DNA of 64,000 bases from Candidatus Fermentibacteraceae bacterium (GTDB lineage Bacteria; Fermentibacterota; Fermentibacteria; Fermentibacterales; JCC-6): positions 1 through 64,000 of the forward strand of contig JAMOUX010000044.1 in NCBI GenBank assembly GCA_027067855.1, written 5' to 3'. The notes beneath the pieces were generated by a model that was not told where the DNA came from, made no database searches, and was given only the letters and a program-made list of their open reading frames with translations. Each line of letters opens with the position of its first letter. Positions within the stretch are counted from its first letter, which is position 1. Positions 2,115-7,227 of the stretch are shown here, piece after piece. The position numbers and the translations under genes were made by a program.

Positions 2115-2142
2115 CCCGCGCAGTTCCACGAAACTGCGCGGG
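2115..2142 (-). terminator. hairpin ending the selenium operon
   Basis: CCCGCGCAGTT (2115-2125) and AACTGCGCGGG (2132-2142) form a perfect 11-bp GC-rich stem with a six-base loop. On the minus strand it starts 12 bases after the stop codon of the gene ending at 2155. The downstream minus-strand sequence (GTGCGCTTTAT) is only weakly T-rich. Position and strength make it the likely 3' end of the whole selenium transcript. Confidence 0.6.
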
Positions 2143-2154
2143 ATGCCGGGTACT

Positions 2155-2769
2155 TTAATCGTTGAACATGGCCTTTATCTCCGCAAACGTGGAAGAATGA
2201 AGGCCGATGGTTCCCGTCAGCTTCATGTGAAGCACTTTCTTATCCAGGTTGCCGGTGGAGCTGGATGCGCCACCGTAGACCATCCTGTTGGCTCCAGAAT
2301 CCCAGGCGTAGACGTAGATCTCCTCTTCGCCCCATTCCCATACGAAGTCGATTATCAGGTTGTCCTGTCCGTTGTAGTTGAAGGAATTGGTCAACTCGAG
2401 GTTGAACCACTCGCCGGGTCCGTTGGCTTTAATCCAGACATCAGGGCTACTGTAAACCAGTTTTTTCGATCCGGATATGTAGTTGGCTTCGAAATCCTTT
2501 CCCAACTCGTCGGAGGAACAGTAACCCATATAGATATTGAAGTTTTTAAGATGAACGGCGGCATCTCCGGAAGTATGCCTAACCCATTCGATGGAGCTGA
2601 TCTCTATGGGAGTATCGATCTCGCCGTGCAGTACCACCAACTGGTGGCGCATGCTGACGAATCAACTGCCGCAGAACGGCTTGTTGCTGGGCAATTCGTT
2701 TGAGCCGAACTCGACCGAATCGCCGTAACATATCCCGGCGATCATGACGAATATCGCAACAGCTTTCAT
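2155..2769 (-). CDS. small exported protein with an in-frame TGA: candidate selenoprotein or nonsense-interrupted gene
   Basis: From the ATG at 2769, which has a strong AAAGGAG ribosome site, the frame reads a signal peptide (MKAVAIFVMIAGICYG), then a mature start ending FCGS. A TGA at 2664-2662 follows, then 168 further codons in the same frame to the TAA at 2157-2155. The downstream part is a coherent beta-rich extracellular domain (NFNIYMGYCSS, WFNLELTNSFNYNGQDNLIIDFVW), so both sides belong to one 204-residue product. Read as selenocysteine, the TGA makes a C-G-S-U (CxxU) motif at residues 33-36. The gene is last in an operon with selD, itself a TGA-containing selenoprotein, and a SECIS-like hairpin follows the TGA. 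Alternatives are a premature stop derived from Trp, Arg or Cys, or a sequencing error. I favour neither strongly. Confidence 0.6.
2634..2647 (-). promoter_or_regulatory. SECIS-like hairpin downstream of the in-frame TGA
   Basis: On the minus strand CCACC (2647-2643), loop AGTT and GGTGG (2638-2634) form a perfect 5-bp stem; outer GCA/TGC bases can add three pairs. The loop begins 20 bases after the TGA and its second base is G. This matches the known description of bacterial SECIS elements, in which an apical loop with an early G lies about 16-37 bases after UGA. A short palindrome can also arise by chance, so this supports rather than proves function. Confidence 0.4.
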
Positions 2770-2820
2770 CTTTTCTCCTTTCGTTCGTGGAGCGTTCCCG
2801 GCGACACCATGCCGGCGGGG

Positions 2821-3042
2821 TTATTCACTCCGTTTTTTCAGTATGAGCCTTATTTCACCGTCTTCCATCTCCACCGTCGTACTGCAATTCAGTTTCTCCG
2901 CGTACCTCTTGCAGTTTTCCAGCGAGGTCAAAGAATCCAGTAACACGACGGCGCCATCCGAATCCATAGTTTCTATGGCCTTTTTCGTGAAAAGAACCGG
3001 CTGAGGACATGATAAGCCTTTCGCATTCACCTTCAACATCAT
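2821..3042 (-). CDS. TusA/SirA-family sulfur or selenium carrier
   Basis: A 73-residue single-domain protein with the family signature near the N-terminus: AKGLSCPQPVLFTKKAI, where the Cys-Pro pair holds the persulfide (or selenide) carrier cysteine. TusA-like proteins pass sulfur from a cysteine desulfurase to acceptors. Its start ATG overlaps the stop of the YedE transporter gene in an ATGA arrangement, so it is translationally coupled to the selenium operon. Selenium trafficking is therefore the likely role, by context. The length is normal for the family. Confidence 0.85.
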   Translation of the reverse strand: MMLKVNAKGLSCPQPVLFTKKAIETMDSDGAVVLLDSLTSLENCKRYAEKLNCSTTVEMEDGEIRLILKKRSE

Positions 3043-4178
3043 TCGCCCCTCCCTACGTTCAGGGTGTTGCCGAACCCGACCCAGAGGCAGTAAAGCAGGC
3101 CCAGGCCCACCGCCACCATTCCGGCTGCGCCCGGTCCGCCGATTACCGCGGATCCGTCGATCATCTTGTCAGGAACGGCGGCCAGTCCGAAATCGTGGGC
3201 CAACGCCCCCCCTGCTATCATGCCCAGGACGAAGACGGCGGAATCTCCGTCACCCTCCCCCGCCAGAAAAAGCTGCCGCCCCGGACATCCTCCCGCCAGG
3301 ACGAAGGCAAGACCGGCGAGAAGCATCCCCAGGAAATTCCAGAGGTGCGCACTATGGGATATCGGCTGGTTGCCGAACGAAACGTGAAAATAATTACCTC
3401 CGGTTATCCATGAAAGCAGCAGGTTCATAACCAAGGCGGTCGCCACCAGGGCGACAACTCCTCTCAGAAGGTGGCTATCCCTTATCAGGAGCCTGTCGCG
3501 AACCGCGCCCACGGTGCAGAACCTGCTTCTTTGGGCCAGGAAACCTATCACCACGCCTACCACGAGGGACACGAGCAAGGGCGCGTGCATTGCCCCGGGC
3601 CCGGAGATACTGCTGAAAAACGCCCTGCCTTCCACTGGTTTCAGAACCGCGAAAAGCAACAACGCCAAGGCCAGCATGACTGGAAGCACAAGCCCGGACA
3701 TAGCCCTGGCCGGTTCCGCCCTTCCAAGGGAAAAACCCCTTTTCAGGAAAAAGTTCCCCACAGCAATCCCGGCGGAAAGCCCAAGAAGCCCGGTAACGGC
3801 GTTGAGATCACCTCCCGAAAGACGGAGCAACGCTCTCCATGGACACCCCAGGAAAACGAGGGCTCCCACCATAGCGAATATCCCCAGGGTGAACCTGGTG
3901 ACGGGAGACGAACCGGCTCTCGGCTTCCACTCTTTCCACAGGAATGCCGCAAGGGAGGAACCAAGTACGAATCCCACTATTTCCGGCCTAAAATACTGAA
4001 CCACTCCCGCCCGATGCAAACCCAGGGCGCCGGCCATGTCCCTCTGGAAACAGGCCACGCATACCCCCATGTTCGAAGGGTTGCCCAGAAGCACCAGGAC
4101 AGGGGCGAGAATTCCCACGAGAATTCCGGTGAAAACAGGCGAAGTAAAGATTTTACCCGGGTTCGTCTCCATTTTCAT
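3039..4178 (-). CDS. yedE: YedE/YeeE-family membrane transporter, putative selenium or sulfur uptake
   Basis: A 379-residue polytopic membrane protein with about ten hydrophobic segments. The family's cysteine motifs in loops are present: GVCVACFQRDMAGALG near residue 37, FLGCPWRAL near 108, AQRSRFCTVGA near 217 and LAGGCPGRQLF near 297. This is the YeeE/YedE fold, whose YedE branch accompanies selD and yedF. Transport of a selenium species is inferred from that association and from this operon; thiosulfate or sulfide-derived species are the alternative. Both ends overlap neighbours by ATGA, so it is tightly coupled. Confidence 0.85.
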   Translation of the reverse strand: MKMETNPGKIFTSPVFTGILVGILAPVLVLLGNPSNMGVCVACFQRDMAGALGLHRAGVVQYFRPEIVGFVLGSSLAAFLWKEWKPRAGSSPVTRFTLGIFAMVGALVFLGCPWRALLRLSGGDLNAVTGLLGLSAGIAVGNFFLKRGFSLGRAEPARAMSGLVLPVMLALALLLFAVLKPVEGRAFFSSISGPGAMHAPLLVSLVVGVVIGFLAQRSRFCTVGAVRDRLLIRDSHLLRGVVALVATALVMNLLLSWITGGNYFHVSFGNQPISHSAHLWNFLGMLLAGLAFVLAGGCPGRQLFLAGEGDGDSAVFVLGMIAGGALAHDFGLAAVPDKMIDGSAVIGGPGAAGMVAVGLGLLYCLWVGFGNTLNVGRGE

Positions 4179-4393
4179 ATCGCGACTATCCTCTCGTAAT
4201 TCACACCGTGTTTCTCGACAACTTCAAGAACCTTGACGACCTGCGCACTCTCGAACCTCAACACCACGCCGCAGTTCGAACTTATCTTCCGCGGAGTCGG
4301 AATCAGTTTGCATTCTATTCCATTCTCCTTCATCAGCTTCTCTGATATCAGGGCATGGCTTATCGATGGCATGAGCATCACGGAGTAAGTCAT
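4175..4393 (-). CDS. DUF3343 small Se/S carrier-like protein
   Basis: A 72-residue protein starting MTYSVMLMPSISHALISEKL and containing RKISSNCGVVLRF. This resembles the DUF3343 family, whose members lie beside yedF and selD and are proposed selenium/sulfur carriers working through the central Cys. The chosen ATG at 4393 overlaps the yedF stop (ATGA), and its own stop overlaps the transporter start, which fixes both ends. A longer in-frame extension upstream only mirrors yedF and is not coding. Confidence 0.8.
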   Translation of the reverse strand: MTYSVMLMPSISHALISEKLMKENGIECKLIPTPRKISSNCGVVLRFESAQVVKVLEVVEKHGVNYERIVAI

Positions 4394-4995
4394 ATCGTAA
4401 CCGTTTTCCGGGACAGGAGAATCGTTTCGGCAATAGTGTACATGTTGGATACCCGGCCCACCAGCACATCCTCCAGGAGGCCGAAACGGTCCAGGCAGGT
4501 ACCGCAAACCAGTATGTCCGCCCCGGAAGATTCCAGTGCGGCGAGATCGTCGATAACGGGTGAACCTTTTACGGCGAGTTTCACGCCGGAATTGTAGAGA
4601 ATCACCGTCCTGGGCGGTACGTCGATCTCCGTGAGGGTATGCATGAATGCCCCGGTCAATATTTCTCCCAACTCGTCGTCGCCCGAACCCATGCACCGGG
4701 AATTAATCACCAGGACACATCCGTCTTCCGGGGATTCTCCGTCCGAAGCATCTCGAACATCTTTCATCCCGGTTTCAACCGTATCCTCTCCCCCGGTCAC
4801 TTCGACGCGATATCCTTCTTCCGTTCCTTCTATCTGCACACTACAGTTCATGGACCGGGCATAACCCGCAACATTGGCCGCCTGTTCCCGTTTGGAAACC
4901 AGCACCACGAATCCGCCGGAGCCTTCCTTTATCCGCTTCTTCGTCAACAACACCGGCTGGGGGCACGGAAGCCCTTTGGCATCGATAACGTCCAT
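4390..4995 (-). CDS. yedF: selenium metabolism protein YedF (TusA-like plus DsrE-like domains)
   Basis: A 201-residue two-domain protein. Residues 1-70 are a TusA/SirA domain with the carrier motif AKGLPCPQPVLLTKK. From about residue 90 there is a DsrE-like domain (CVLVINSRCMGSGDDELG, then GADILVCGTCLDRFGL) with several conserved cysteines. This arrangement is the YedF family found with selD in selenium-using bacteria; its biochemical role is unproven, though delivery of selenium to SelD is the common proposal. A GAGGGAAGGG stretch directly precedes the ATG, 13 bases after the selD stop. Confidence 0.9.
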   Translation of the reverse strand: MDVIDAKGLPCPQPVLLTKKRIKEGSGGFVVLVSKREQAANVAGYARSMNCSVQIEGTEEGYRVEVTGGEDTVETGMKDVRDASDGESPEDGCVLVINSRCMGSGDDELGEILTGAFMHTLTEIDVPPRTVILYNSGVKLAVKGSPVIDDLAALESSGADILVCGTCLDRFGLLEDVLVGRVSNMYTIAETILLSRKTVTI

Positions 4996-5008: not shown

Positions 5009-6067
5009 TCAGACCAGGTTCAACCCCGTACCTTCTTCCACTCTGCCTATATCGTAGAGTTCCATTCCATGTTCCTCCGCATAATCACGCAAGCGTCCGG
5101 CTACGGCTTCGGGGGCGGTCAGCAACAGTCCTCCCGAAGTCTCGGGAGTATGTATCAACCTGAATATCTCCTCCTCGACGTCTTTCCCCCTACGGATTTT
5201 CGATTCGAAGGCAGCCAGGTTCCTGCAGGTGCCCCCCGGGAAAAGCCAATTCTCGGCGTACTCCTCGGCTCCGTCCAGAAACGGCAGGGAGGAAATATCG
5301 ATCGTCATCATCACTCCGCTGCGGTCGGCGATTTCGAGTACGTGTCCCGCAAGACCGAAGCCGGTCACGTCGGTACACGCGGTAGCCCCCATCGAAACCG
5401 CCATACCCGAACACCCGGAATTCAACCGGAGCATGGACTCCATGGCGCTTTTCAAGTGATCCTCGGACGCCGCGTTCCCGGCGGCCGCCGATGTGATTAT
5501 TCCGGTTCCCAGAGGTTTACTGAGAAACACGATGTCACCCGCATTCGCGCCGTCCTTGGAAAGAACTTCCGAGGGTTTGGCGAATCCGAGCACCGCGAGA
5601 CCGTAGAAAGGTTCCTTAGACATTACCGTGTGCCCCCCGGCAAGGATCGCACCGGCCTCGGATATCTTCGAGGCCCCCCCCTGGAAAATCCCCGTTATGA
5701 GATCATGGGGCATTTCTTCCGGAAACCCGGCAACGTTGAGGGCAAGCACTACCCTGCCGCCCATGGCGTAGACATCACTCATGGAATTGGCGGCGGCTAT
5801 GGCTCCGTACGTGAACGGATCATCCGCCACCGGGGTAAGGAAATCCACCGTGAGTATCACGGCGAGATCTTCCGAAACCCTGTAAACGGCGGCATCATCC
5901 GCGCTGTCCAGCCCGTACATGACATGTTCGTCATGCATCACCGGAATAATGTCGCCGAAACATTCGAGGATATCGGAAAGGGCCTCCGGCCCCATCTTGG
6001 CAGCTCAACCCACCGAGGCAGCCATGGTGGTCAGCCGTACCTTGCGCGTACCCTTATCCTTACCCAT
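5009..6067 (-). CDS. selD: selenide, water dikinase SelD, itself a selenoprotein (Sec at residue 21)
   Basis: SelD makes selenophosphate from selenide and ATP, the Se donor for selenocysteine and selenouridine. The gene must be read from the ATG at 6067, through an in-frame TGA at 6007-6005: the N-terminus is MGKDKGTRKVRLTTMAASVG, then TGA, then AAKMGPEAL. The TGA occupies the active-site Cys/Sec position, followed by the catalytic Lys. Downstream are DDAAVYRV, ANSMSDVYAMGG and GGHTV, all SelD landmarks. Total 352 residues, normal for the family. Stopping at TGA and restarting at 5995 would remove the active site. The start overlaps the cysteine desulfurase stop (TAATG). A SECIS-like hairpin lies just after the TGA. 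Confidence 0.93.
5979..5993 (-). promoter_or_regulatory. SECIS-like hairpin of selD
   Basis: On the minus strand GGGGCC (5993-5988), loop GGA and GGCCCT (5984-5979) form a 6-bp stem closed by one G-U pair. The loop begins 18 bases after the selD TGA and its first base is G. Both match the known geometry of bacterial SECIS elements, which bind SelB to recode UGA. Confidence 0.6.
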
Positions 6068-7227
6068 TATGCATTCCCGCCTTTCACTATCTCAGCGACC
6101 GCTTCGACCGCCGTTTCCATTTCTTCCCCCGTATTAAAAACACCGGGGCTGAATCGAACGGTACCGGACGGATAGGTGCCCAACGTTCTGTGTGCCCACG
6201 GGGAGCAATGCAAACCCACCCGGCACATGATTCCATACCGCTCGTTCAGCATGCCGCCCAACTGGTCGCAACGGTATCCTTCAATGATAAACGACAGTAC
6301 CGGGGCCGAACCCGTTCTTCGGGGATCTCCCTGGATCTTCAACCCCGGTATCCCATCCAACCCGTCGACGAGCAACCGGGTCAGCTTCCTCTTCTTTTCC
6401 ATGGTGTTCTTTTCTTCCCGCTCTTCCAGCCACGTGACGGAAGCGAGCAGACCCGCGATTCCGCAGGAATTCAGGGTTCCGGCCTCGAACCTGTCCGGAA
6501 GGAAATCCGGATGTTCATCGGATTCCGAGCGACTGCCGGTACCTCCCGTGTAAAGAGGCTCCATCACCGTGTAGTCGAATTCGTCCGCGAAAACCAGGCC
6601 GCCTATCCCGGTCGGACCCAGAAGCCCCTTGTGCCCCGAAAATGCCAGTATATCCACTCCCAGACGTCTTATATCAACATCGACGCAGCCCGCCGACTGG
6701 GCGGTATCGAGAAGCACCGGAACACCCCGTTCCCGTGCCGCCGCGGCTATCTCCCGGACCGGCTGAACCGTACCGCAAACATTGGATGCATGGTTGAGCA
6801 CCAGCAGGGACGCCTTGCCTTTCTTCAACCTTTTCCGGACGTCATCGGGATCGAGAAGACCCGCGGAGGAACAGGGTATGATTTCAACCGTCACCCCGCG
6901 TGATTCTTCCAGCATCCGCAGAGGTCTCATAACGGAATTGTGTTCCATGGAAGAGGTCAGGACCCTGTCTCCAGGTTTCAGCATTCCCTGCAGAACAATG
7001 TTGAGGGACACGGTCATGCCGCCTGTGAAGACCACCCTAAGGGGATCCGAAACCCCGAAGAACCTTGACAGGGCTATCCTCGCTTCCAAAACCTTGCGAC
7101 CGGCATCGATGGCAAGGCTGTGACCGGCGCGTGAGGGGTTCGCCGCGTATCGTTTTATAAAATCGGATACGCTCCGGTGAACCTCCGGCGGTTTCGGCCA
7201 TGAGGTCGCTGCATTGTCAAGGTACAT
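6067..7227 (-). CDS. class V aminotransferase, cysteine desulfurase / selenocysteine lyase type
   Basis: A 386-residue PLP enzyme starting MYLDNAATSWPKPP. The PLP lysine is in FSGHKGLLGPTG, and a substrate cysteine loop is at CRVGLHCSPWAHRTLG near residue 340. DTAQSAG carries the PLP-binding Asp. The fold group removes sulfur from cysteine or selenium from selenocysteine. As first gene of an operon with selD and Se carriers, mobilising selenium (or Se0/persulfide handling) for SelD is the likely task. It has a strong GGAGGAG ribosome site, and its stop overlaps the selD start. Cysteine versus selenocysteine preference cannot be read from sequence. Confidence 0.9.
   Translation of the reverse strand: MYLDNAATSWPKPPEVHRSVSDFIKRYAANPSRAGHSLAIDAGRKVLEARIALSRFFGVSDPLRVVFTGGMTVSLNIVLQGMLKPGDRVLTSSMEHNSVMRPLRMLEESRGVTVEIIPCSSAGLLDPDDVRKRLKKGKASLLVLNHASNVCGTVQPVREIAAAARERGVPVLLDTAQSAGCVDVDIRRLGVDILAFSGHKGLLGPTGIGGLVFADEFDYTVMEPLYTGGTGSRSESDEHPDFLPDRFEAGTLNSCGIAGLLASVTWLEEREEKNTMEKKRKLTRLLVDGLDGIPGLKIQGDPRRTGSAPVLSFIIEGYRCDQLGGMLNERYGIMCRVGLHCSPWAHRTLGTYPSGTVRFSPGVFNTGEEMETAVEAVAEIVKGGNA

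Follow-up and report, generated by a model that had tools for sequence, protein, structure and literature searches.

The question raised by this locus was whether the only in-frame TGA in the last gene of a selenium operon is read as selenocysteine (Sec) and, if so, what kind of protein it yields. The operon lies in a stretch of 64,000 nucleotides from a Candidatus Fermentibacteraceae bacterium, which is referred to here as the window. Feature coordinates are collected in Table 1. With the TGA translated as Sec, the minus-strand frame 2769-2158 gave a protein of 204 amino acids. The TGA fell at residue 36, in the sequence P-F-C-G-S-U, and was followed by 168 further codons and a TAA. A preliminary description had reported a strong ribosome site, a signal peptide, a coherent frame through the TGA and a CxxU redox motif. 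Translation reproduced the frame, homologues kept the TGA (see below), the motif is present as Cys33/Sec36, and both the Shine-Dalgarno site and a hydrophobic N-terminus (MKAVAIFVMIAGICYG) are found in the sequence. AGGAG/GGAGG-type sites precede most homologues as well. A signal-peptide-like shape was recognized by eye, without a dedicated predictor, in nearly all full-length homologues. A lipoprotein was ruled out, as no lipobox was seen (AGIC, with no G/A/S preceding the Cys). Under translation table 11, the mechanically derived reading frame started only at an internal ATG (2652) and comprised 165 amino acids, so ordinary annotation would lose both the signal peptide and the motif. An antisense reading frame (2143-2703, plus strand) was discarded as merely mechanical, the conserved frame being that of the minus strand. 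The inverted repeat directly past the gene has arms of 11 bp followed by an A/T-rich stretch; it was absent from the terminator-scan listing.

Table 1. Features of the selenoprotein gene and its operon in the window
Feature	Position	Strand	Basis
Predicted exported CxxU beta-sandwich selenoprotein gene	2155..2769	-	204 codons including one UGA, TAA stop
In-frame UGA, residue 36, predicted selenocysteine	2662..2664	-	TGA or Cys in homologues with the site
Cys33 codon, partner of Sec36 in C-G-S-U	2671..2673	-	Conserved in most members
Bacterial SECIS-type hairpin, 6-bp stem GCCACC/GGUGGU, loop AGUU	2633..2648	-	RNA folding, covariation
Predicted signal peptide, about residues 1-16	2722..2769	-	By-eye inspection; similar hydrophobic N-terminus in homologues
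Shine-Dalgarno AGGAG, 5 nt ahead of ATG	2775..2779	-	Sequence
Inverted repeat CCCGCGCAGTT/AACTGCGCGGG, possible operon end	2115..2142	-	Sequence reading
SirA/TusA-like sulfurtransferase, adjoining the selenoprotein gene upstream	2821..3042	-	PF01206; N-terminal part of TIGR03527
YedE-family putative selenium transporter	3039..4178	-	TIGR04112, E 2e-136
DUF3343-like putative Se/S carrier	4175..4393	-	ORF without NCBIfam match itself; PF11823 in the corresponding gene of a relative
YedF selenium metabolism protein (TusA + DsrE)	4390..4995	-	TIGR03527, E 6.5e-52
selD, selenophosphate synthetase, itself a selenoprotein	5009..6067	-	TIGR00476, E 5.7e-100; UGA 6005-6007 in SVGUAAK
Class V aminotransferase, cysteine desulfurase/Sec-lyase-like	6067..7227	-	TIGR01977 above cut-off, NF040779 below cut-off

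A homologue search gave matches in 40 of 60 related genomes, at about 150 listed places, nearly all of them with exactly one TGA. Family members with TGA or Cys at the site were present in 40 of the 42 Fermentibacterota genomes. Relatives identified by name were Candidatus Aegiribacteria, Ca. Fermentibacter, Ca. Sabulitectum and other Candidatus Fermentibacterota/Hyd24-12, and the window genome was placed in the same genus as genome G010. The preliminary description had singled out residue 36 of the homologues as the place to look, and uniform Trp or Arg without a conserved hairpin as the outcome that would refute Sec. About 111 distinct members contained the site: 98 had TGA, 13 had Cys, and none had another residue without an adjacent Sec. 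Neither Trp nor Arg was seen, and the hairpin was kept with compensatory changes. As the TGA is conserved in homologues, its in-frame position is not put down to chance. In 89 of the 98 Sec members the UGA stood at the aligned column itself; in the rest it was displaced by one residue (PFxCU or PFSSUC). All six orthologues of the window gene (L002-L007) retained it. Exchange between Sec and Cys is a classic mark of a genuine selenoprotein family. A maximum-likelihood tree calculated without the site required three Sec/Cys changes and grouped the window gene with its six orthologues, all of which have Sec; on the strongest branches alone, the Cys form could still have arisen just once. The gene thus satisfies two criteria for a bacterial selenoprotein, a UGA aligned to UGA or Cys in homologues and coding sequence conserved downstream. 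All sequences are metagenome assemblies, and the member counts depend on how the search was bounded, with scoring confined to the 8 best candidates of each genome. A scan of the genome collection with the single protein gave no matches, probably reflecting too distant homologues and the use of one pattern with Cys for UGA. The competing explanation offered in the preliminary description, a point nonsense mutation (e.g. Trp TGG to TGA), or an assembly error, truncating the gene, would look alike in one genome with a lone in-frame TGA, and only one family member was found in the window genome, but it is refuted by the UGA/Cys pattern in homologues from about 40 genomes, by the 168 conserved codons downstream and by the covarying hairpin after the UGA, and can be dismissed.

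The hairpin was predicted in the preliminary description as a 5-bp stem with G in the loop, starting 20 nt after the TGA. The bacterial SECIS geometry and the G were confirmed; the stem has 6 bp and starts 13 nt past the UGA, with the loop beginning after 19 nt. In the window gene, the minimum free energy over 49 nt was -20.5 kcal/mol, with z = -2.7 relative to dinucleotide-shuffled sequences, and only 1.6% of synonymous versions of the gene retained stem and loop. For this gene alone, the fold-energy z was merely marginal (p = 0.055). Published limits for bacterial SECIS elements are an apical loop of 3-9 nt, a stem of 4-16 bp, a G in the first two loop positions, a UGA-to-loop distance of 16-37 nt and a minimum free energy of at most -7.5 kcal/mol (PMC13188914, Fig. 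2). All were satisfied by the window hairpin (4-nt loop, 6 bp, G in second position, 19 nt, -13.4 to -20.5 kcal/mol).

Comparison across the family gave a much firmer picture. A 6-bp stem with an AG(G/U)N loop 19-22 nt past the UGA was present in 95 of 97 Sec members, whereas the synonymous codon usage of the individual genes would predict about 8. In Sec members the hairpin overlies the codons of a conserved R-Y-Q-V-V segment. Where Tyr was TAC, the codon paired with it was Val GTN; where Tyr was TAT, it was Ile or Met ATN. Only 2 of 97 members were exceptions. The Arg codon was CGC in all 77 Arg-bearing Sec members; Cys paralogues mostly have AGA and no hairpin. For 76 distinct sequences, 99.6% of cells were paired, 30 cells had changed on both sides, and the covariation score was reached by no shuffle. 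Mean fold-energy z was -1.60 for Sec versus +0.46 for Cys members; the p value of 9e-8 is optimistic because related sequences are not independent. Judged from these alignments, the hairpin is under selection at the RNA level. The SECIS element is written into a conserved protein motif, a Val/Ile change being locked to a silent change of the Tyr codon, and Sec/Cys exchange is accompanied by hairpin loss.

The cysteine partner of Sec varied in some members. A P-I-G-I-G-U subgroup (L087, L055 and L054) kept Sec and has no Cys three residues earlier, implying that CxxU disulfide chemistry is not universal in the family. Another subgroup has adjacent Cys and Sec (PFGCU/PFSCU). Across the family, the site thus takes the form Cys-x-x-Sec, Cys-Sec or Cys-x-x-Cys.

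Genomic context was in line with Sec usage. The preliminary description had the gene ending a selD-yedF operon whose selD itself uses TGA for Sec. Profile matches (TIGR00476, TIGR03527 and TIGR04112) bore out the first point, and an in-frame TGA was seen in selD at 6007-6005. The selenoprotein gene closes a compact operon on the minus strand, in which neighbours overlap or are separated by gaps of at most 51 nt, with the order 5'-Sec-lyase-like, selD, yedF, DUF3343-like, yedE, sirA-like, selenoprotein-3'. SelA, SelB and tRNA-Sec (anticodon TCA) were found in the window genome (1.86 Mb, 98.9% complete), in addition to the selD of the operon. Translation of UGA as Trp or another standard amino acid, by a changed code or leaky read-through and without Sec, would also account for a codon that is clearly translated in this family. 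However, in the same operon UGA serves as the normal stop of selD, yedF and yedE; the alternative residue at the site is Cys and never Trp; the full Sec machinery with tRNA-Sec(UCA) is present; and the SECIS-type hairpin occurs only in UGA members. Read-through as Trp was rejected on the homologues, and decoding without Sec in any form is very hard to sustain. We regard Sec insertion at the UGA of the window gene as nearly certain on sequence grounds; no expression, labelling or mass-spectrometry evidence supports it.

Placement in a selenium operon was shared by the window gene and two further genomes of the same genus (G010 and G016), and selenium-gene neighbours were partly kept in three genomes of another genus (G022, G025 and G032). 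This placement concerns only one orthogroup of 7 genes, and a nearby contig end leaves L004 without enough context for a judgement. Genes for YedE, YedF, DUF3343 and SirA-like proteins have been linked to bacterial selenium metabolism by Lin et al. 2015 (PMC5322559). The window operon holds the same gene set together with selD and the Sec-lyase-like gene; in contrast, the passages of that paper considered here name no exported selenoprotein among the components.

An AlphaFold2 model, calculated from 40 window and related sequences with Cys substituted for Sec, reached a pLDDT of 92.4 and a pTM of 0.85. It showed a beta-sandwich with a C-terminal helix, and the CxxU motif was located in an ordered loop just ahead of the R-Y-Q strand. 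Foldseek comparison with the PDB yielded mostly beta-sandwich/jelly-roll domains, with probabilities near 1.0 and TM scores of at most 0.46. No thioredoxin-like fold was among the 50 PDB matches listed; on this and on the beta-sandwich model, the protein does not qualify as a thioredoxin-fold oxidoreductase. Comparison with BFVD returned mostly generic phage tail beta-sandwiches, one phage protein reaching a TM score of 0.74. PHR/discoidin-like, esterase and phage-fibre beta-sandwich domains share the general fold, but with at most 22% identity and without Sec indicated in the match tables. Of the adhesin-like beta-sandwich proposed in the preliminary description, the beta-sandwich was upheld by the model and by Foldseek; the adhesin-like character rests only on loose fold resemblance and on distant homologues that form N-terminal domains.

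The preliminary description had also considered the protein new as far as known. No sequence match was obtained in Pfam, NCBIfam 2026 or the PDB, and for 39 members no curated NCBIfam or Pfam model matched consistently even at E 0.5. The family is also missing from a catalogue of 119 prokaryotic selenoprotein families (PMC13188914, Table 1) and from the deep-Sep list. A literature search, of incomplete coverage, found no paper on Fermentibacterota and selenoproteins. Novelty held against these sequence collections and family lists, and the family, large and multi-copy, is apparently undescribed. The catalogued families (PMC13188914) likewise insert Sec at UGA by SelA/B/C/D with a downstream bacterial SECIS element, and CxxU and CU motifs occur there too. 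Most characterized selenoproteins have a thioredoxin-like fold according to this 2026 catalogue, whereas the new family is a beta-sandwich, inferred to be exported, with many paralogues per genome. Among the catalogued selenoproteins, those whose type implies action outside the cytoplasm include the TonB-dependent receptor of FCYXU type (NF049945), a GSU2204-type outer-membrane protein and the ExtKL cytochrome. These are unrelated outer-membrane or haem proteins, however, and no match to NF049945 occurred in the new family.

A sister family was detected outside Fermentibacterota in 11 related genomes from five families. One of these families has 22-27 paralogues per genome, partly in tandem arrays, and genome G396 contains at least 13 places with an in-frame TGA. 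Examples of such arrays are L186 (G396:C1:2061500-2069000), L188 (G391:C82) and L189 (G393:C56). UGA occupied the site in 46 of 72 examined members, in CxxU or CU motifs. SelA was found in all 11 genomes and tRNA-Sec in 8; the three genomes in which tRNA-Sec was not found were all below 90% completeness. A perfect stem of at least 6 bp was present in 30 of 45 Sec members versus 0 of 10 non-Sec members, and most of the remaining Sec members showed, by eye, the same hairpin with a mismatch. Paralogues without TGA in part of this lineage lack both Cys and Sec at the site, implying that the fold can do without a redox centre in some cases. In still more remote homologues, also free of TGA, the domain stands at the N-terminus of a large and probably secreted protein, and the site holds some other residue, often an aromatic one. 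The inferred history is that a secreted beta-sandwich domain of general type likely gained the Cys/Sec site.

Recurrent neighbours of the paralogues pointed to the chemistry involved. Downstream of 29 of the 88 Sec members with enough flanking sequence, a NapH/NosR-like Fer4_5 [4Fe-4S] membrane protein was encoded within 130 nt (L110:5721-7217, L114:5725-7380, L134:5636-7069 and 26 further loci); the remainder had different neighbours. The NapH/NosR-like protein carries repeated CPLGxxPxxAC...DxDGDxxCDN motifs. For 10 of the 13 Cys members, the gene upstream encodes a secreted Omp28-like protein that has a C-G-P-C motif as well as a Por secretion tail (e.g. L010:2161-3174, L017:421-1434 and L012:1626-2678). 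Neither neighbour is homologous to the selenoprotein, and both are candidate partners; the NapH/NosR-like protein is a candidate electron donor for the Sec members. The Fe-S neighbour, the Omp28-like neighbour and the selenium-gene neighbours in two genera indicate redox or selenium chemistry.

A secreted protein of structural or adhesin-like character, with Sec confined to a stabilizing selenosulfide bond, could be argued from the beta-sandwich and from the distant TGA-free homologues. Sec is costly, yet it was kept in 98 genes, and both the Sec/Cys exchange and the Fe-S or Omp28-like neighbours suit a reactive site better; a purely structural role therefore appears improbable. Binding of a metal(loid) (Hg, As, Cu or Zn) or of selenium species by the Cys/Sec pair, in a surface scavenging layer and without thiol redox, has a stronger claim. 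The adjacent Cys-Sec of PFGCU and PFSCU resembles that of the catalogued CU-motif proteins MerB-like SaoL and MbdU (PMC13188914), the copies are many, and the window orthogroup sits in a selenium operon. However, the recurrent neighbours examined included no known metal-resistance gene, and electron transfer better accounts for the Fe-S protein found beside 29 Sec members and for the Omp28-like protein that accompanies 10 Cys members. Such binding in place of redox chemistry is considered unlikely, although it survives better than the structural role.

The reading favoured overall is that of a genuine selenoprotein from a previously undescribed multi-copy family, to which we assign a probability of roughly 0.9; what follows on its function is inferred. 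The product would be exported via the Sec pathway, and the Cys/Sec pair may act as a thiol/selenol redox or selenium-binding centre outside the cytoplasmic membrane. Electrons would come from the partners, i.e. the NapH/NosR-like protein for 29 Sec paralogues and the Omp28-like protein for Cys paralogues. By this inference, the protein probably has some extracytoplasmic redox role. On the outer side of the membrane, the window orthogroup might reduce selenium or carry it (e.g. as selenopersulfide) for YedE and the YedF/SelD route; that it serves selenium acquisition is a hypothesis we put forward only tentatively. In its widest form, the proposal is of an unknown extracytoplasmic redox system of radiating beta-sandwich selenoproteins in Fermentibacterota and at least one other lineage. 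Many of these would have their own electron supply (NapH/NosR-like for Sec forms, Omp28-like for Cys forms), the selD-operon copy would capture extracellular selenium, and tandem arrays in one lineage would represent an unusually large expansion of one selenoprotein family. This proposal falls slightly short of even odds.

The findings add a large selenoprotein family of unexpected fold that probably acts outside the cytoplasmic membrane. It occurs in phyla for which metagenomes are the main source of knowledge, and since annotation stops or restarts at the UGA, such a family is easily overlooked. The findings also predict a new bacterial selenium-handling component beside YedE, as well as a new Sec redox protein that is exported and has a candidate electron donor in the membrane.

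A further observation concerned the C-terminus. The motif [ST][FW][GA]xIKxxF (2155-2200 in the window) closes the family members and also unrelated reading frames of the same genomes, and it was seen at L130:6955, L108:447 and L145:2486. It is perhaps a lineage-specific export or anchoring signal.
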